Assembly: GCF_003340495.1 (NCBI RefSeq)
Contig: NZ_QASA01000001.1
Span: 682,001 to 746,000, forward strand
Origin: Adhaeribacter pallidiroseus
Lineage (GTDB): Bacteria; Bacteroidota; Bacteroidia; Cytophagales; Hymenobacteraceae
Reading direction: 5' to 3'
Length of the DNA stretch: 64,000 bases
The notes under the pieces were generated by a model, which was not told the origin of the DNA, did no database searches, and was given only the letters and a program-made list of their open reading frames with translations. This document shows positions 2,764 to 45,587 of this stretch, in pieces. Position 1 is the first letter of the stretch. Each line of letters starts with the position of its first letter. The position numbers and the translations under genes were made by a program.

Positions 2764-3333
2764 CTACTCAATTACTAGGTCGTATTTAACGAGTAAACCG
2801 CTTAAACCCGCCGCGGAGAATTTGGTTTTTTTTGCGGTATTTAGCTCTAAATCAATCGCGTAATTATAAGCCGTCCGGAAGTCGGTTTTGGTGAGATTGG
2901 TACGGTTAAACAAGGTTTGGTATAAGTCGCAATTTAAAAACGCCGCTTCGCTCAAATCGCATTCGGCAAAGTTAGCTTCTTTAATGCTGCACGTATCGAA
3001 AATAGTTTTTTTTAATTTTTTGCCCACGTAGGCCGTATAATCCAGGTTGCAGTGGTAAAAAGAAACGGCAAACAAAAAATCAGCGCAGCGGCTAAAGTTC
3101 AAACCCAGCAACTTGGAGTTCCGAAAGGCTACCGTTTGCAGTTTCGCCTGGTCTAGTTTAACTAAACCCAGGTTACAGGTCTCGAAAGTACAATCAACAA
3201 ACAAAGCCCCGGCAAAAAGGCTTTCGGCAAAATTGCAGTTTTTAAACGTACAGGCATTAAACTCCGTACCCGCCAGCTTCTTTCCCGAAAAATCAATTTT
3301 ATCAAAGAGTTCTTCTTCGTGCAGTAATTTCAT
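2764..3333 (-). CDS. Pentapeptide-repeat protein
   Basis: A 189-residue protein built almost entirely of A(D/N)LxX-type pentapeptides, for example TEFNACTFKNCNFAESLFAG and later AEFNACTFK-like units around residues 20-150. Such repeats fold as a right-handed quadrilateral beta-helix. The best known members (Qnr, MfpA) mimic DNA and protect gyrase, but most are of unknown role; nothing here singles out a Qnr. There is no signal peptide or membrane segment, so it is probably cytoplasmic. It is monocistronic, with a good Bacteroidota -7 element just upstream of the start at 3333. Family call is firm; function unknown. Confidence 0.85.
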   Translation of the reverse strand: MKLLHEEELFDKIDFSGKKLAGTEFNACTFKNCNFAESLFAGALFVDCTFETCNLGLVKLDQAKLQTVAFRNSKLLGLNFSRCADFLFAVSFYHCNLDYTAYVGKKLKKTIFDTCSIKEANFAECDLSEAAFLNCDLYQTLFNRTNLTKTDFRTAYNYAIDLELNTAKKTKFSAAGLSGLLVKYDLVIE

Positions 3334-3359: not shown

Positions 3360-3479
3360 TGGGTTTTATTTTTTTGGAGTAGCTTTTAAAAGGAGAAATT
3401 TAGGTACAGCGGCTATTTAGAAGGCAAAGCAAATATAGATAAAGCCAACTAGTCGAAGCTTGTAGCTGGTTTCAACTAT

Positions 3480-3502
3480 GGCGCGGAAGTTACTTCCGTG
3501 CC
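3480..3502 (+). repeat. REP-like palindrome, copy 1 (RAYT-associated)
   Basis: A 23-base imperfect palindrome whose core is GGAAGTTACTTCC with GGCGC/GTGCC outer arms. It is preceded by a GTAG tetranucleotide at 3462-3465, the type of mark that sits beside REP hairpins recognised by REP-associated tyrosine transposases. It lies just downstream of the transposase gene at 3520-4071. The same sequence recurs at 4156 and, inverted, at 4297. Confidence 0.75.
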
Positions 3503-3519
3503 TTTCTCTATTAACCAGA

Positions 3520-4071
3520 CTATTCCATAAACTTTATTGGTAATAAACCTTTCCCACTAGCATAATCCAAAGCGCTGCTGTATACATAATGTTCGGCTTC
3601 GGCTACCATCCCAGCTTTTACGGGATTCTGATGTATATAATCCAGACAGCGTTGCTGTTTGCTGTTATCCAGAAGCGCAACCGGGTGATATTGGTTTTGC
3701 CAGAATTGGTATTTCTGGTGTTTGCTGCTACTTTCCGCCGCTTTTTGAAAAATAGCCAGCATCCATTCTTTTCGGCTTTCCTGCTCGTTCGCCTGAATGG
3801 CTCGAATTAAGGCAACGGAAGTATATTTTTTAAAATCCCGGATAATATTGTTTAACGGTTCTTGCCCGGTGGTTCCTAAAGCCAAATGCAAGTGGTTCGA
3901 CATAATAACCCAAGCGTATACTTCCAGTCCTTTCTTTTGCTGGCAATATTGTAAACTTTCTATTAGTAAGTCATTGTATTCGCGACGGGTAAATACATCC
4001 ACCCAATGCACCACGGCAAAAGTGATAAAGTAGATTTTATCGGCATCCCGTATTTTGTACTTTTCACTCAT
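3520..4071 (-). CDS. REP-associated tyrosine transposase (IS200-like Y1 fold)
   Basis: A 183-residue Y1-transposase-fold protein. The HUH metal-binding motif is visible as VIMSNHLHLAL (His-Leu-His near residue 62). The C-terminal segment DYIHQNPVKAGMV followed by YVYSSALDY is characteristic of the REP-associated tyrosine transposase (RAYT) family rather than of autonomous IS200/IS605 TnpA. RAYTs cleave and join single-stranded DNA at hairpin (REP) sequences through a tyrosine. The gene is flanked by two direct copies of the palindrome (3480 and 4156), with a third, inverted, copy at 4297, which supports a domesticated REP/RAYT module. It appears intact. No partner tnpB or IS ends are visible. 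Confidence 0.88.
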   Translation of the reverse strand: MSEKYKIRDADKIYFITFAVVHWVDVFTRREYNDLLIESLQYCQQKKGLEVYAWVIMSNHLHLALGTTGQEPLNNIIRDFKKYTSVALIRAIQANEQESRKEWMLAIFQKAAESSSKHQKYQFWQNQYHPVALLDNSKQQRCLDYIHQNPVKAGMVAEAEHYVYSSALDYASGKGLLPIKFME

Positions 4072-4155
4072 GCTTGCCAGACAAAGCCTGTTTGGGTCTT
4101 AGTTCTCCGTGATTCGGAAGATACGTTTAGGAAGGCACTACTGTAGCTCCATTAT

Positions 4156-4178
4156 GGCGCGGAAGTTACTTCCGTGAC
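4156..4178 (+). repeat. REP-like palindrome, copy 2
   Basis: This copy shares the first 21 bases of the 3480 copy and ends GTGAC instead of GTGCC. It is again preceded by GTAG (4143-4146) within a similar TGTAGCT...ATGG context. It lies upstream of the transposase gene and pairs with the inverted copy at 4297. Confidence 0.75.
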
Positions 4179-4296
4179 TAACTATAAAATAACAGGATAA
4201 ATAGCATAAAAATAAGGAGGAACGGTTGTTAATCCAAGTAGGAAAAAGAATAAAGAGGTACTTATTTCCCGCTGATTAGGAAGGCTCGTTTAATAA

Positions 4297-4319
4297 GGCA
4301 CGGAAGTAACTTCCGCGCC
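4297..4319 (-). repeat. REP-like palindrome, copy 3 (inverted)
   Basis: On the minus strand this matches copy 1 exactly over the palindrome and a few bases on each side (CTATGG before, TT after). It lies 34 bases beyond the stop codon of the reverse transcriptase. Copies 2 and 3 face each other 118 bases apart, the inverted pairing seen in BIME-type REP doublets. Confidence 0.75.
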
Positions 4320-4353
4320 ATAGAAGGATTAATTAAACAATAAAATCAATCGA

Positions 4354-6465
4354 CTATATTATGATGTTTTTTATATTCCAATTAAAATTACAAAGTTCTT
4401 CTATAGATTGTTTTTCTTTTCCTATTAAATCTTTAAGCTCATTAAATGTAATTAAGCTTCTTATATTTCCAACTTTGTCATATGAATGTGCTTCGGTTCT
4501 TTGGTTTCTTTTTTCATTTATTTCTATCCAATACCTATTGCAAATTGGTAATATGTACTCGATTCTATTAGAATTTAAATTAGAGCCATATTCTAAAGTT
4601 TTAAATCCTATTTTAAGGCACTTGCATATTTTATCAAATATCAAGTTGTTTACTAAATTTAAATTTAACAATGATTTAGAGGCATCTATATCTGCAGATT
4701 TAACAAATATTAGGAATGAATTTAGTAGTTCCTCATACATTTCCTGTTCATGCCATATTAATGGGTTGAAAAACGCTTCAGGGTTCATTATTCCCCATTT
4801 GTCTTTCAATGTATGATGAATAATATCTAACGGCTGTTTTGTTAAGATATACCTAATATAATCGTTTTGGTCTGAATTGTATTTTAAACCCACAATGTAA
4901 GCTACATCACTAAACAATAAATATAATCCTTGTAGTGAAATTAAGTTGTTTTTATTTTCAAGCAACTTAGTTGCAAAAAATTTTCTAAATGATGGATCTT
5001 TTGATATGATAAATTTATAATTATTTAATTCTCTTTCAATAAAATAGTTGTCTAGGCTATTAGAGATCAAAATTAATTCTATTTTGTTGTTTTGGAATAA
5101 CCATCGTACCATGTAAAACCTCACTAACCAATGTCTATGATTGCCATTAATATACCGTGAGTAAATTGATTCATTAAAAGGAATATCAGGGAAATGCTTA
5201 AATATCAAAGCTATTAAGTGATGAAATAATATATGTTCATCATTAATTAAAGATTCCAAAAAGTATATTACATCCTTATCTAAGGCAAAATGCTTTTTAA
5301 AGTAGAATAGTACACCATCAAAATGAGTTAGAATGAAAACGTAATTTTTAATCAGAGTTATTTTTACTTCATTATCTTGATTTAATTTATATAACGAAAA
5401 ACTAATAAGTGATTTATCTAAGTAGATTTCTGATGAATTTTCATTAAAGCAGTTTAGAAATCGATCTCTAAGTTTTTTATGTGTTTTAGATTTAAGTTTA
5501 CCAGCTTCTTTACCGATTGTTAGTTCATAAAATTCTTTAGATATTGATGAAAATTTATTGTTTTGTAAATTTAACTCTTTATCTATATCGGTGATTTCCT
5601 TTATAAGGACTTTGCTTCCTTGAGGGATCAGACCCAAATCGCGTGAAAATAGATCCAGAGCTGCTATTATTTTTTGACTTGAAATCCTGTCTTTAGCAAA
5701 GATCCTTATATCATCTACATATCTAATATATTTAAATTGAACATTCTTAATTCTTAAAACTTCTAAATCTAAATGCATTAAATATAAATCAGCTAAAAAG
5801 GGGGAACTTAATGGTCCTTGGGGAATACCGTGTTTGCTATTGAAAGTCGAATGATTAGAATCAGCTGTCCAAGTTTCTAAACAATCAGCTAATAAATTTA
5901 ATATTTGTTTTTCTATCTTATAATTGTTTTCGAGAATTTGACATAAGATATTGTGATCTATTGTGTCGAAAAATGAAGCTATATCAAATTCACTTAGATA
6001 TTTATAACCTTCATTAAAGTATGTTTTAGAAACATCATTAAACCTTTTCCAACGAGTTTTCCAAGATTTATAAAAGAAGGCTCTATCACTAGGGCGAGCT
6101 GTTGAAGTATTTATTATATTACCAAAGATTACACTATTATAGAACGGGGCAATTTTATCATATGCATTGTCAGCAATTATATTAACTATTGCTTGATAAA
6201 CTAATAAGTCAATAAAATTTAGCATTGACAATGGCCTAACCAAATTGTCTTTTTTAGGAATAAAAATTTTATGGCATTTTTCTGGTCTATAGATTCCTCG
6301 TTTTATATGATTTATTATATTCTCAATATTCTCATCTAAAAAGTATCCAAAGATTCTTAAATCATCATAATAGATGGTTTTATAAAAAGTTTTTGAGGCT
6401 GTTTTTAATCTGGAGTAAGCTAATTGAAAATTGTCTATACTTAAAAATGCCTGAAACTGAATCAT
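4354..6465 (-). CDS. Reverse transcriptase with long helical C-terminus, candidate defence RT (Abi/DRT/UG-like)
   Basis: A 703-residue protein with a complete RT palm. Visible motifs are the fingers motif IPKKDNLVRPLSMLNFIDL (residues 69-87), the first catalytic Asp in SEFDIASFFDTIDH (158-171), GIPQGPLSSPFLADLYL (213-229), and the catalytic box YIRYVDDIRIF (246-256) with YVDD at 249-252. There is no group II intron maturase or endonuclease domain, no DGR-type context and no msr/msd-like retron structure that I can recognise. Residues from about 290 to 703 show no known catalytic motif and look helix-rich, as in Abi-type RTs with HEAT-like repeats. The gene is far more A/T-rich than its neighbours and lies beside a RAYT/REP module, both signs of acquisition. 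RT activity is strongly supported; a phage-defence role is inference, and the subclass is undetermined. Confidence 0.85.
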   Translation of the reverse strand: MIQFQAFLSIDNFQLAYSRLKTASKTFYKTIYYDDLRIFGYFLDENIENIINHIKRGIYRPEKCHKIFIPKKDNLVRPLSMLNFIDLLVYQAIVNIIADNAYDKIAPFYNSVIFGNIINTSTARPSDRAFFYKSWKTRWKRFNDVSKTYFNEGYKYLSEFDIASFFDTIDHNILCQILENNYKIEKQILNLLADCLETWTADSNHSTFNSKHGIPQGPLSSPFLADLYLMHLDLEVLRIKNVQFKYIRYVDDIRIFAKDRISSQKIIAALDLFSRDLGLIPQGSKVLIKEITDIDKELNLQNNKFSSISKEFYELTIGKEAGKLKSKTHKKLRDRFLNCFNENSSEIYLDKSLISFSLYKLNQDNEVKITLIKNYVFILTHFDGVLFYFKKHFALDKDVIYFLESLINDEHILFHHLIALIFKHFPDIPFNESIYSRYINGNHRHWLVRFYMVRWLFQNNKIELILISNSLDNYFIERELNNYKFIISKDPSFRKFFATKLLENKNNLISLQGLYLLFSDVAYIVGLKYNSDQNDYIRYILTKQPLDIIHHTLKDKWGIMNPEAFFNPLIWHEQEMYEELLNSFLIFVKSADIDASKSLLNLNLVNNLIFDKICKCLKIGFKTLEYGSNLNSNRIEYILPICNRYWIEINEKRNQRTEAHSYDKVGNIRSLITFNELKDLIGKEKQSIEELCNFNWNIKNIII

Positions 6466-7048
6466 TTATATTTTATATTGACTTAATTGTTTTTACCAAT
6501 CTAATTAATATTCCTAAATTTGTATATGTATTTTTAAAATATATTTATCAATTTATATGAATGTCATATTAGTTGAGAATTTTTATTTTAACCTGCTTCT
6601 GACATCAATCAACCCCAAAACTGAAGTTTAGCATAAGCCTCTTGCGAATATTTGTGGTGTTCTAAAACGCACACGCATCTATTTCCGCAAACCATCGCGC
6701 TGCCCAATCAGCCGCTTTACACCCAGCAGGACCGTTTACCAGTTAAATTTTATAAATAAGTTAATCTAGCTCGTGCCAAGGCTTATTTTCCGGTATCGTT
6801 GCCGGTAGAATCGGTATCGTTACCGGTAAAAAATGCGGCTTTAAGCTCTTTTTGGTAGTTATTATCATCTATATTAGCAAATAAACAATACTATTTACCG
6901 GATTAAACTGCCCGGAAAAAAGCTAATTTCTTGGCTTAAGGCCGGGAGCTATTGATTGATTTTTGATTTTCCGGGAGTTACTGATTCAACCGTAAGATCA
7001 GACTTGGCAGTTTGTTTTCCGGCATTTATTTAAAAAACTAAAGACACC
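6466..7048. other. Intergenic region: RT upstream segment and uxaB leader
   Basis: The first 125 bases continue the A/T-rich composition of the RT gene, including a small palindrome ATATGA-ATG-TCATAT at 6555-6569. The composition changes abruptly near 6590. The rest is the leader of uxaB and contains the paired operator candidates at 6790-6825. No supported gene lies here, though the A/T-rich segment directly upstream of the RT is where several defence RTs carry a non-coding RNA. Confidence 0.5.
6790..6825 (+). promoter_or_regulatory. Paired palindromic operator candidate upstream of uxaB
   Basis: Two direct copies, 21 bases apart, of a short palindrome: CGGTATCGTTGCCG at 6791-6804 and CGGTATCGTTACCG at 6812-6825. 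The second has perfect CGGTA/TACCG arms around TCGT. The size, symmetry and central CG-containing core resemble LacI-family operators, which control hexuronate genes in many bacteria. It lies about 220 bases before the uxaB start. The binding protein is not encoded in the window. Confidence 0.45.
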
Positions 7049-8569
7049 ATGATTTTAAATCAGGAAAATTTAAAAAATATCGCCCCGACGAACGTGCAGG
7101 TTCCCACTGCAGACTCCCGGCAGCTGCCCGAAAAAGTATTGCAGTTTGGTACCGGCGTTTTGCTGCGCGGCTTACCCGATTATTTTATTCACCAGGCCAA
7201 CCAGGCCGGTATGTTTAACGGCCGCATCGTGGTGGTAAAATCCACGGACCACGGCGACACCAGTGCTTTCGAGCAGCAGGATAATTTGTATACGCTTTGT
7301 GTGCGGGGTATTGAAAACGGACAAACCGTAGAAGAAAATATTATTTGTTCGGCCATTAGCCGGGTAGTTTCGGCAAGCACCCAATGGCCCGAAATTTTAA
7401 AATTTGCGGCCAGTCCTGATTTAACCGTAGTCATATCCAATACCACCGAAGTAGGCATTCAACTGGTAGAAGATTCTATTCAGGCCCAGCTGCCCGTTTC
7501 TTTTCCCGGCAAATTAGTAGCGGTTTTGCGGGCCCGGTACCAGGCTTTTGCCGGCGACCCGAGTAAAGGTTTAGTTATTGTGCCCACCGAACTGATTCCG
7601 GACAACGGTACCAAACTAAAAGATATCGTGTACCAACTCGCGCAGCAACTCGAAGCAGAACCCGGTTTCCGGAAATGGCTGGATACCAGCATTATATTCT
7701 GCAATACCCTCGTGGACCGCATTGTGCCGGGCAAACCCGATCCGGAAAAACTAGCGGCCCTGGAGCAAGAGCTGGGTTACCACGACGAACTGCTCACCAT
7801 GTCGGAGGTATACCGGTTGTGGGCCATTGCGGGCGATGAAAAGGTGCAAGAAGTATTGTCGTTTGCGCCAGTAGATGCCGGAATTATTATTGCCCCGGAT
7901 ATTGATATCTATCGGGAGTTAAAGCTACGACTTTTAAACGGCACGCACACTTTAAGCTGCGGGGTAGCTTTTCTGGCCAACCAGGTAACCGTGAAGCAAG
8001 CCATGGGGCAGGAGTTGGTAGCGGGTTTTATCAGCAGCTTAATGCAAAACGAAATAGCGCCGGCCATTCCGTACCCGGTAGAACCCGCCGTTTCCCTCGA
8101 TTTTTCCCGGAAAGTACTCGACCGGTTCCGGAATCCGCACTTGGAACACCAGTGGCTCAGTATTACTATGAATTATACTTCGAAATTAAAAATGCGGGTA
8201 ATTCCGGTTTTATTAAAGTATTACGAATTGTTTAACCAGGTGCCGCAACAAATAGCGTTTGGCTTTGCGGCGTATCTGCAGTTTATGCGGGCAACCAGTA
8301 TAGAAAACAATAAGTATTATGGTAAGCTGGCCGGAGAAAAATACCTGATTAACGATGATCAGGCCTTGCTTTTACATACGTATTGGCAGCAAGCTACACC
8401 AGCGGTGGTAACTCAACAAGCTTTGCAGAACCCGGATTTATGGGGAGCGGATCTAACAACTTTACCTGGTTTTGCCCCGACGGTTGCTGCTTACTTAACG
8501 CAAATTCAGGAAGCAGGTATAGCGCAAGCGTTGCAGCACGTAGTCGCTAAAAAAACAGTGGTCTCGTAA
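7049..8569 (+). CDS. uxaB: Tagaturonate reductase (altronate oxidoreductase)
   Basis: A 506-residue mannitol-dehydrogenase-family protein. It would catalyse NADH-dependent reduction of D-tagaturonate to D-altronate in the galacturonate branch of hexuronate catabolism, in the cytoplasm. The N-terminal dinucleotide-binding segment reads VLQFGTGVLLRGLPDYF (residues 30-46), followed by VVVKSTDHGD and the conserved VISNTTEVGI (about 128-137). The later NTLVDRIVPGKP and LRLLNGTHTLS segments are hallmarks of the family's catalytic half. Length is slightly above the typical 480-500. It is followed 130 bases later by uxaC, which makes its substrate. The altronate dehydratase gene (uxaA) is not in the window. 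A paired operator candidate lies upstream. Confidence 0.92.
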   Translation: MILNQENLKNIAPTNVQVPTADSRQLPEKVLQFGTGVLLRGLPDYFIHQANQAGMFNGRIVVVKSTDHGDTSAFEQQDNLYTLCVRGIENGQTVEENIICSAISRVVSASTQWPEILKFAASPDLTVVISNTTEVGIQLVEDSIQAQLPVSFPGKLVAVLRARYQAFAGDPSKGLVIVPTELIPDNGTKLKDIVYQLAQQLEAEPGFRKWLDTSIIFCNTLVDRIVPGKPDPEKLAALEQELGYHDELLTMSEVYRLWAIAGDEKVQEVLSFAPVDAGIIIAPDIDIYRELKLRLLNGTHTLSCGVAFLANQVTVKQAMGQELVAGFISSLMQNEIAPAIPYPVEPAVSLDFSRKVLDRFRNPHLEHQWLSITMNYTSKLKMRVIPVLLKYYELFNQVPQQIAFGFAAYLQFMRATSIENNKYYGKLAGEKYLINDDQALLLHTYWQQATPAVVTQQALQNPDLWGADLTTLPGFAPTVAAYLTQIQEAGIAQALQHVVAKKTVVS

Positions 8570-10420: not shown

Positions 10421-11305
10421 ATGGCTGAGTTTGTAGAAAGATACATCAACCCCTTTACCGATTACGGATTTAAGAAGCTGTTCGGCGAAGAACCGAACAA
10501 GGACCTACTACGGGACTTTCTGAATGTGCTTTTACAAGAAGAGCAGGGCGAGATAATTGATTTAACGTACCTGAAAAGTGAGCACTTAGGAACTGGAGAA
10601 TTAGACCGCAAAGCCATCTTTGATTTATATTGTGAAAATAACCGGGGCGAAAAATTTATTGTGGAACTGCAAAAAACCAAGCAGAATTTCTTTAAAGACC
10701 GCACTGTTTATTATTCTACTTTTCCCATTCGGGAGCAGGCCAAACGGGCCGACTGGAACTACGAGCTAAAAGCGGTTTATACCATTGCCATTCTGGACTT
10801 CGTGTTTGATGAGGATAAAAAGGATCACAATAAATTCCGGTACGATATTAAACTGACGGATACCGAAACCAAGGCCGTATTCTATGACAAGCTCACGTTC
10901 ATTTACTTAGAAATGCCAAAATTTAACAAAACCGTGGAGGAACTGGAAACCCGGTTTGACAAGTGGTTGTATGTAATACGCAATCTTAACCGGTTAGACA
11001 AAGTGCCGGAGAAGTTAAGAGAGCGGGTATTTGAAAAATTGTTTGAAACTGCTGAAATTGCCCGGTTTACCCCTGACCAAGTCCGTTCTTACGAAGATAG
11101 CTTGAAATACTACCGCGATTTAAAAAACTCCCTAGATACGGCCCGAGAAGAAGGTTTACTGGAAGGAATAGAGAAAGGAATAGAAGAAGGTAAAATTGAA
11201 GTAGCTTCCGAAATGCTGAAGGAAAATGAACCTCTCGCAAAAATAATTCGATTTACAGGCTTGTCACGGGAGCAAATCGAAAGGTTGAAAACAAACCAAG
11301 CGTAA
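10421..11305 (+). CDS. Rpn-family PD-(D/E)XK nuclease / putative transposase
   Basis: A 294-residue protein of the Rpn (recombination-promoting nuclease, formerly transposase_31/PDDEXK_2) family. The N-terminus INPFTDYGFKKLFGEEPNKD is the family signature. The nuclease core is visible as FDLYCENNRGEKFIVELQK, with Asp68 and Glu82-x-Gln84 forming the D...ExQ active site. The C-terminus is a charged helical stretch (GLLEGIEKGIEEGKIEVA) of the repetitive type often seen in this family, and ends in a short LSREQIERL helix. E. coli homologues are DNA endonucleases that raise RecA-independent recombination; a link to mobile DNA or defence is suspected for the family but not shown here. It appears intact. 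Confidence 0.9.
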   Translation: MAEFVERYINPFTDYGFKKLFGEEPNKDLLRDFLNVLLQEEQGEIIDLTYLKSEHLGTGELDRKAIFDLYCENNRGEKFIVELQKTKQNFFKDRTVYYSTFPIREQAKRADWNYELKAVYTIAILDFVFDEDKKDHNKFRYDIKLTDTETKAVFYDKLTFIYLEMPKFNKTVEELETRFDKWLYVIRNLNRLDKVPEKLRERVFEKLFETAEIARFTPDQVRSYEDSLKYYRDLKNSLDTAREEGLLEGIEKGIEEGKIEVASEMLKENEPLAKIIRFTGLSREQIERLKTNQA

Positions 11306-45170: not shown

Positions 45171-45587
45171 ATGAAGCTTATTATTATAGCTTTTATACTA
45201 TTTTATCCATTATATCAATACAATAATTTTAAAATTAGTGGAGATTATACGGTTATACTCGATAAGAAAAACAGGAACAAGATCAGTCAAAATTATATTA
45301 TAACTTTCCGTGGAAGCACATACACGAAGGAAGTAAACAATGGCAAAAAGATTAATGGGAAGATTGTTCGAGTTACACAAGTTGATAAAAACTCACCAGT
45401 GACTTATTTAATTGATGCTAAGGATTATCCATCAAAAAATTATTTAGATAGTTCATTTAATAAATCTTTTGGAGATGTTGTTATTGAATTTAAAGAATCT
45501 GAGAAGGATACTTTAAATTTTAGACTCACTTATTATTCTAATTTACATATAACCATAAATACAGGTAAATTAATTAAAGTTAAATAA
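45171..45587 (+). CDS. Small hypothetical exported protein, A/T-rich
   Basis: A 138-residue protein starting 14 bases after the permease stop. An N-terminal hydrophobic stretch (MKLIIIAFILFYPLYQY) may be a signal or anchor. The rest is a predicted beta-rich fold (ISGDYTVILDKKNRNKISQN, FRGSTYTKEVNNGKKINGKI, VVIEFKESEKDTLNFRLTYY). I recognise no family. Codon use is clearly more A/T-rich than in the enzymes on either side, which suggests a recent arrival. It could be translated from the permease transcript. Existence as a gene is likely; function unknown. Confidence 0.65.
   Translation: MKLIIIAFILFYPLYQYNNFKISGDYTVILDKKNRNKISQNYIITFRGSTYTKEVNNGKKINGKIVRVTQVDKNSPVTYLIDAKDYPSKNYLDSSFNKSFGDVVIEFKESEKDTLNFRLTYYSNLHITINTGKLIKVK

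Follow-up and report, generated by a model that had tools for sequence, protein, structure and literature searches.

A UG19 reverse transcriptase with a likely AbiA-like layout and a probable defence role, carried as exchangeable cargo beside a RAYT in Adhaeribacter pallidiroseus

The reverse transcriptase gene and its family

The window, a stretch of 64,000 nucleotides of the Adhaeribacter pallidiroseus contig NZ_QASA01000001.1 (positions 682,001 to 746,000), contains an open reading frame (ORF) at 4354-6465 on the minus strand that encodes a reverse transcriptase (RT) of 703 amino acids. An earlier note, made from the letters alone, had described it as a stand-alone RT of the Abi/DRT type with an intact catalytic set. 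The three motifs were found as claimed, with DIASFFD running from residue 161, GIPQGPLSS from 213 and RYVDD from 248, which places YVDD at residues 249-252 (5710-5721, minus strand, read from the sequence). The gene is also far richer in A/T than its neighbours, as had been noted, with a G+C content (GC) of 0.266 against 0.427 for the window; the segment 4324-6584 has a GC of 0.258.

The family of the RT was tested with the profile search that had been proposed as a check. The best PADLOC profile was RT_UG19 with an E-value of 2.4e-180, covering positions 2-561 of 562, and the group II and retron models stayed well under their cut-offs (112.1 bits where 300 are required, and 49.5 where 235 are required). 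By its sequence, the RT is a full-length member of the named defence RT family UG19, a candidate defence-associated RT (DRT), and nothing that was tested sets it apart from this family. The suggestion of an undescribed subgroup was not supported since the family already has a name in PADLOC, though a literature search on UG19 reverse transcriptases turned up no functional study of it; in one paper about bacterial RTs, UG19 appears once, as a label only.

The closest relatives, each 63% identical, were found in a Chryseobacterium metagenome-assembled genome (MAG; locus L013) and on a contig that is recorded as part of a Woesearchaeota MAG (L014). The genome of the window itself (G000) has four further RT matches, each 29% identical and with equal scores. 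The proportions of non-synonymous (pN) and synonymous (pS) differences were 0.10 and 0.74 for L013 and L014, and 0.24 and 0.77 for the window and L013 (pS saturated), which indicates that the protein is under purifying selection. UG19 is rare. It was found in 2 of 395 genomes of a phylum sample (E up to 1e-50), in 2 of 391 genomes of the class of G115 and in 4 of 390 genomes of the order (both E up to 1e-40), where the samples overlap and those of the phylum and the order include G000. G967, one of the four genomes of the order sample, has a partial match (7e-58) that may be another UG family. Scans of viral contigs with L014 and L006 found no relative, and a scan with L017 gave nothing beyond the contigs that carry L017 and L018 themselves; among the matches listed for plasmid records (up to a limit of 5000) and phage records, none covered 80% of the RT query.

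In L017 and L018 (4001-6061) the UG19 RT sits between endolysin-like and integrase-like genes, assigned by eye, on viral contigs and is therefore probably prophage-borne. Imperfect G+C-rich palindromes that resemble gene-cassette recombination sites were seen by eye around the RT of L014 (about 470-600 and 2722-2870) and upstream of 1486 in L019. The UG19 gene of L021/L053 (genome G861) is split into two reading frames. In L055 (2556-8225) a UG19-like RT of 572 amino acids lacks the profile end and overlaps a 211-residue RTas1465 gene with RSAFQH, and TmtA follows.

Exchange of genes at two slots

The RT gene lies in a segment at 4331-6584 that is exchanged between species. Homology to the genus genome G003 is lost at 4330 and found again from 6585, and that to G004 is lost at 4291 and found again from 6582. 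On the left, the flank is a pentapeptide-repeat gene at 2764-3333 on the minus strand (Pfam Pentapeptide_4, 4e-26), which is 90, 91 and 88% identical in G003, G004 and G006. On the right, the degraded start region of a cbb3-oxidase gene follows at 6585-6749 with a DNA match of 76-77% to the gene start in G003 and G004. The oxidase gene comprises COX1 and FixO, as tested on the G004 copy. It is present at this position in G003, G004 and G005 but has shrunk to some 165 bases in the window, and the genes located downstream of it in G004 are also absent from this position. The next intact gene rightward, at 7049-8569 on the plus strand, belongs to the mannitol dehydrogenase family (Pfam Mannitol_dh, 9.6e-24).

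Between the pentapeptide gene and the exchanged segment is a REP-associated tyrosine transposase (RAYT, TnpA_REP) at 3520-4071 on the minus strand. It matches NF047646 with 7.8e-33 and 113.4 bits, above the NCBIfam cut-off of 80, as well as Pfam Y1_Tnp, so that the single-strand transposase seen earlier at this place stands. Its motifs NHLH, WQ and YIHQNP, read by eye, agree with subclass 2.6 of PMC6006769 (this paper, like PMC11077055, PMC12632851 and PMC13174585 below, is cited from extracts). Three repetitive extragenic palindromic (REP) sequences flank the gene: palindrome 1 at 3476-3504 (plus strand, core 3480-3502), which is also present in G003, palindrome 2 at 4153-4179 (plus strand, core 4156-4178) and the inverted palindrome 3 at 4295-4323 (minus strand, core 4297-4319, G000:C1:686297-686319). 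The latter adjoins the left edge of the exchanged segment, and its core leaves the 34 bases to the end of the RT gene that had been counted before. When the own genome was searched with the REP pattern allowing up to one mismatch, 9 matches were found in each orientation, spread over 13 places, and the reversed pattern, used as a control, gave 0. The neighbour and its palindromes resemble the RAYT/REP units of subclass 2.6 (PMC6006769), but the RAYT is a resident neighbour and stands outside the RT system.

The content of the slot was compared among the sister species. G003 has the same pentapeptide gene, three REPs and a RAYT 94% identical in the same place, then other cargo and then the cbb3-oxidase gene. 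Its cargo consists of a gene for 307 amino acids and one for 357 (NsnA 1.6e-67; GmrSD_N 1.4e-24). In G004 the RAYT is absent, traces of the REP region are left and the cargo is a 657-residue gene (TmtA, 8e-6). In G006 a GajA/OLD-like ATPase (GajA, 1.4e-11) comes after the left flank, and of the right flank just a trace of 107 bases is left. In G005 (L087, 4446-4995) a RAYT of 78% identity is followed by three palindromes that resemble REPs (judged by eye, one of them imperfect) and then by the oxidase upstream region, with no ORF of at least 110 residues between the RAYT and that region and with a left flank that differs from the window. The stretches of G001 and G002 have a different gene after the pentapeptide relative, and the contig of G007 is too short to show the slot. 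The RT is present at this locus in one of the eight genus genomes (one of the eight is 78% complete). The earlier note had named presence at the same locus in most related genomes, without defence neighbours, as an outcome that would refute its reading; this was not what was found. The stand-alone Abi/DRT-type RT of that note is upheld by the UG19 profile and by a slot that holds other, partly defence-like genes in the sister species.

Since the RAYT stands in the same place beside other cargo in G003, and before the same right flank with no cargo ORF in G005, the RT is replaceable cargo and the RAYT a resident. Judged from these alignments, the two did not come in together, and the idea of a mobile island comprising both was not borne out. 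In another genus (L131, 4661-5785) a RAYT adjoins the same oxidase gene, as seen by eye, and an A/T-rich SIR2-like gene (Aga_SIR2, 1.2e-9) lies on its other side. Counting rightward from the RT slot, the third gene (10421-11305 of the window) is a transposase of the PD-(D/E)XK nuclease family (PDDEXK_2, 1.3e-77).

A second slot was found directly behind the gene of ribonucleotide reductase, nrdA. It carries the UG19 RT of G004 (L006/L056), that of G861 (L021/L053) and another RT in G967 (L022/L054); the reductase was identified with Ribonuc_red_lgC on L006 and by eye at the other loci. A RAYT is near the reductase gene in five species, G000, G002, G003, G004 and G006 (L098, L093, L091, L056 and L090). 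The cargo between the reductase gene and the RAYT differs in each of them: three A/T-rich genes in G000, one with a weak NsnC match (8.2e-5), a dGTPase in G002 (1.3e-121), in G003 a gene that weakly resembles KAP NTPases (1.3e-4) and has no PADLOC match, the UG19 RT in G004 and a Pycsar pair in G006 (PycTIR 1.1e-86 and PycC 1e-88). The nrdA slots of the other genera, G861 (L053) and G967 (L054), carry RTs and showed no RAYT in the 8 kb read, and therefore a RAYT is not needed for a hotspot.

Domain layout, DNA synthesis and rival explanations

The RT domain was set by us at residues 1-300 (5566-6465, minus strand; Pfam RVT_1 3.6e-17 at 69-285, and predicted model) and the helical domain at residues 301-564 (4774-5565, minus strand; low-confidence model). 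The C-terminal domain of about 135 residues (565-703; 4357-4773, minus strand) is predicted to be a helical bundle. The earlier note had seen no known catalytic motif in the C-terminal extension and overlooked R653-N-Q-R-T-E-A-H660 at 4486-4509 on the minus strand. We aligned eight rows (the window, L013, L014, L016, L006, L017, L018 and the second frame of L021; alignment A3), in which L013 is close to L014 and L017 to L018. Residues W, N, G, P, R, H and I are invariant, and the R and H are spaced R-x6-H in all eight rows, in agreement with the HEPN motif R-x4-6-H. The HEPN motif of AbiA, RNSNPVSH, is likewise R-x6-H (PMC11077055).

A separate model of residues 565-703 had a mean pLDDT of 74.2 and showed four long helices and one short helix. 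Among the fold matches listed for it (50 of 77), those with a TMq of at least 0.47 were 1wol (0.53), 3o10 (0.51), 1ufb (0.50), 5yep (0.50), 2awc (0.48) and 6m6u (0.47). Five of these six chains are HEPN proteins, namely 1wol, 3o10, 1ufb, which we take to be one, and 5yep and 6m6u, for which this was taken from abstracts; 2awc is presumably a hemerythrin. The C-terminal domain is probably HEPN-like, rather than HEPN. A separate 211-residue ORF of L019, which has RSAFQH and matches RTas1465, was compared with the C-terminal domain as a possible split HEPN partner, an idea that was dropped because hhalign showed no relation (probability 0.1).

UG RTs of class 1 that have a helical-repeat domain need no nucleic-acid template for DNA synthesis, and those of class 2 use a non-coding RNA (ncRNA) encoded in cis as the template (PMC13174585, PMC12632851); that of DRT10 has a length of 137 nt (PMC12632851). 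The room for such an RNA was measured at the UG19 genes, taking as neighbours ORFs, which are not proven genes. L017 and L018 have 90 bases upstream and 7 downstream and L021 has 67 upstream, and the upstream gaps are 115 bases in L006, about 93 in L013 and 173 in L014. The DNA match of the window to L013 and L014 is confined within the ORF, with no conservation in the flanks, and a single Rfam match at chance level was found (E 0.34). Because several of the UG19 gaps are small compared with the 137 nt of the DRT10 ncRNA and the flanks are unconserved, a flanking ncRNA appears less likely for UG19. For the priming, Tyr28 (6382-6384, minus strand) is a candidate. It is invariant in the eight rows of alignment A2 that cover it and in the model lies just past the loop between helices 10-22 and 27-41; the priming tyrosine of AbiK has been reported at such an N-terminal loop site (PMC11077055).

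From the layout and the slot we infer that the RT is a single-gene UG19 anti-phage system of AbiA-like layout that makes DNA without an ncRNA and was acquired as A/T-rich cargo of a turnover slot, a reading to which we give a probability of about 0.55. In the protein, the RT domain would be followed by a helical domain and then by a second helical domain at the C-terminus, which has the R-x6-H and is probably HEPN-like, as in AbiA. Most likely, DNA would be made without a dedicated ncRNA template and primed by the protein, with Tyr28 as candidate primer. The C-terminal domain would join the enzyme into a working assembly, and either the DNA product or this domain would halt phage growth after infection. 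The gene would have been gained as a single A/T-rich segment between the resident REP/RAYT unit and the cbb3-oxidase upstream region. AbiA of Lactococcus (8oz7; PMC11077055) shares the order of RT, helical and C-terminal domain, the R-x6-H, the RYVDD and the single gene; in contrast, its helical part has about 170 residues against about 264 here, by our boundary. AbiK, Abi-P2, DRT4 and UG15 also have an RT and a helical domain, and structures of these are among the fold matches of the window RT. DRT2, DRT9 and DRT10 are likewise defence RTs of the UG group, but they need a cis-encoded ncRNA (PMC12632851), of which there is no sign at the window RT.

Several observations weigh against this reading. 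The runners-up in PADLOC were UG21 (1.5e-62) and then UG32 and UG22, and a model of AbiA is absent among the best 25 of 51 families. The model of the full RT had a mean pLDDT of 68.5 with a poorly determined helical domain, and its best fold matches are group II RTs, though AbiA (8oz7, rank 12) and AbiK (7r07, TMq 0.39) are also among them. For the C-terminal model every Foldseek E-value was at least 2.4, with the HEPN chains at 4.7 to 8.3 among the matches listed. Pfam with E up to 10 gave no HEPN family in 4354-4830 or 4354-5598, unlike in AbiA, and a profile of the C-terminus gave chance matches alone among the PDB sequences. The priming tyrosine of AbiA is in the loop that links the RT to the helical domain; for this site, Tyr313 of the window RT is not conserved in A2. 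No RNase activity was observed for the AbiA HEPN domain (PMC11077055). The exchanged segment leaves about 119 bases upstream of the RT start codon and 23 to 30 downstream, and the upstream gaps are longer in L014, L016 and the UG19-like L019. In the slot, the 307-residue partner gene of G003 has no PADLOC or Pfam match, and the HATPase similarity of the 657-residue gene in G004 (6.4e-5) is under the Pfam cut-off.

The longer gaps count in favour of an alternative of the class 2 type, in which, as in DRT2, DRT9 and DRT10, a short cis-encoded RNA would be copied into repetitive DNA. Class 2 RTs do work in this mode (PMC12632851, PMC13174585) and the profiles RT_UG17 and Drt9 match the RT with 1.2e-21 and 5.8e-17, but the unconserved flanks, the chance-level Rfam match and the near lack of intergenic room in L017, L018 and L021 make it rather unlikely. 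It is also improbable that the C-terminal domain is the effector, with DNA synthesis sensing the infection and releasing an active HEPN RNase. The invariant R-x6-H and the HEPN-like bundle would fit such a role, but the fold evidence is weak and AbiA showed no RNase activity with the same motif spacing (PMC11077055).

Still less credible is that RAYT and RT form one mobile unit, where the REP-flanked transposase moves or has captured the RT. The exchanged segment does start 7 bases past REP 3, and both UG19 RTs found in the genus (window and L056) adjoin a RAYT although each genome has no more than 3 RAYT matches. This is opposed by the RAYT of G003 in the same place without the RT, by the RAYT of G005 before the same right flank, by the right edge of the segment, where no REP was seen, and by the RTs in the nrdA slots L053 and L054 with no RAYT in the 8 kb read. 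That the gene is a retroelement RT (group II, retron or diversity-generating retroelement) or is decaying without a present function is hardly believable. Its core resembles group II RTs in sequence and fold, and these are the best PDB matches, but the scores are far under the group II and retron cut-offs against 2.4e-180 for UG19, the frame is intact and the protein appears to be under purifying selection. Taken together, the RT is a real member of the defence RT family UG19 and the cargo of a RAYT-marked slot, and its layout is likely AbiA-like.

RAYT units and their cargo in the genus

To what extent RAYTs mark such slots was tested on 25 of the 30 RAYT matches in the genus, comprising 20 stretches with 22 RAYTs and, in addition, the window, L043 and L056, for which the cargo was known beforehand. 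An A/T-rich ORF (GC up to 0.345) was present within 1.5 kb of 19 of the 25 RAYTs, compared with none of the 20 control regions taken at an offset (Fisher 7e-8). When the threshold was set relative to the control GC and L099 was counted once, the numbers were 16 of 23 and 0 of 20. The Fisher P overstates the case, because the idea and the threshold came from the same stretches, a single ORF was counted for both RAYTs of L099, and the same RAYT slots recur in different species. In an independent sample of 20 RAYTs from other genera of the family, the difference was not significant (4/20 against 1/20), and so we make no claim for the family.

The nature of the cargo was tested with PADLOC (E up to 1e-3) on a chosen part of the cargo ORFs. 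Five of ten hand-picked cargo ORFs matched, a type IV restriction gene, a dGTPase, PDC-M16A, PDC-S57 and PDC-S31, against one of ten control ORFs, which were not GC-matched; the latter was a SNF2-type helicase (8.4e-146). In further scans, 4 of 6 cargo ORFs of the genus and 3 of 4 of other genera were matched.

The benefit of RAYTs to their host is still debated. A literature search for a link of RAYTs to defence, antiphage functions, hotspots or restriction found nothing evidently on point, and the words 'defense' and 'restriction' occur 0 times in the extracted text of PMC6006769. As a tentative proposal, which we consider doubtful, the RAYT/REP units of the genus would mark defence hotspots. 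The transposase and its palindromes would stay at fixed gaps, and A/T-rich and in large part defence-like cargo (UG19 RTs, dGTPase, restriction-like genes, ATPases and the Pycsar pair) would be exchanged beside them, perhaps as nicking by the RAYT at the REPs makes the gaps recombinogenic; UG19 would be an ncRNA-free RT-HEPN defence enzyme using such docks. If domesticated transposases do mark the turnover of defence genes, this would suggest a role for the RAYT, which could then serve as a guide to new defence systems in this group. The slots, rather than the RT, are the part worth following. The UG19 copy itself is directly testable, because it has close homologs and a candidate active site in its C-terminus, and because the slot is also found with no RT in it.

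Elsewhere in the window, at 45171-45587, a solitary ORF of 138 residues with a GC of 0.25 lies among genes of GC 0.47 and is possibly a recent arrival.

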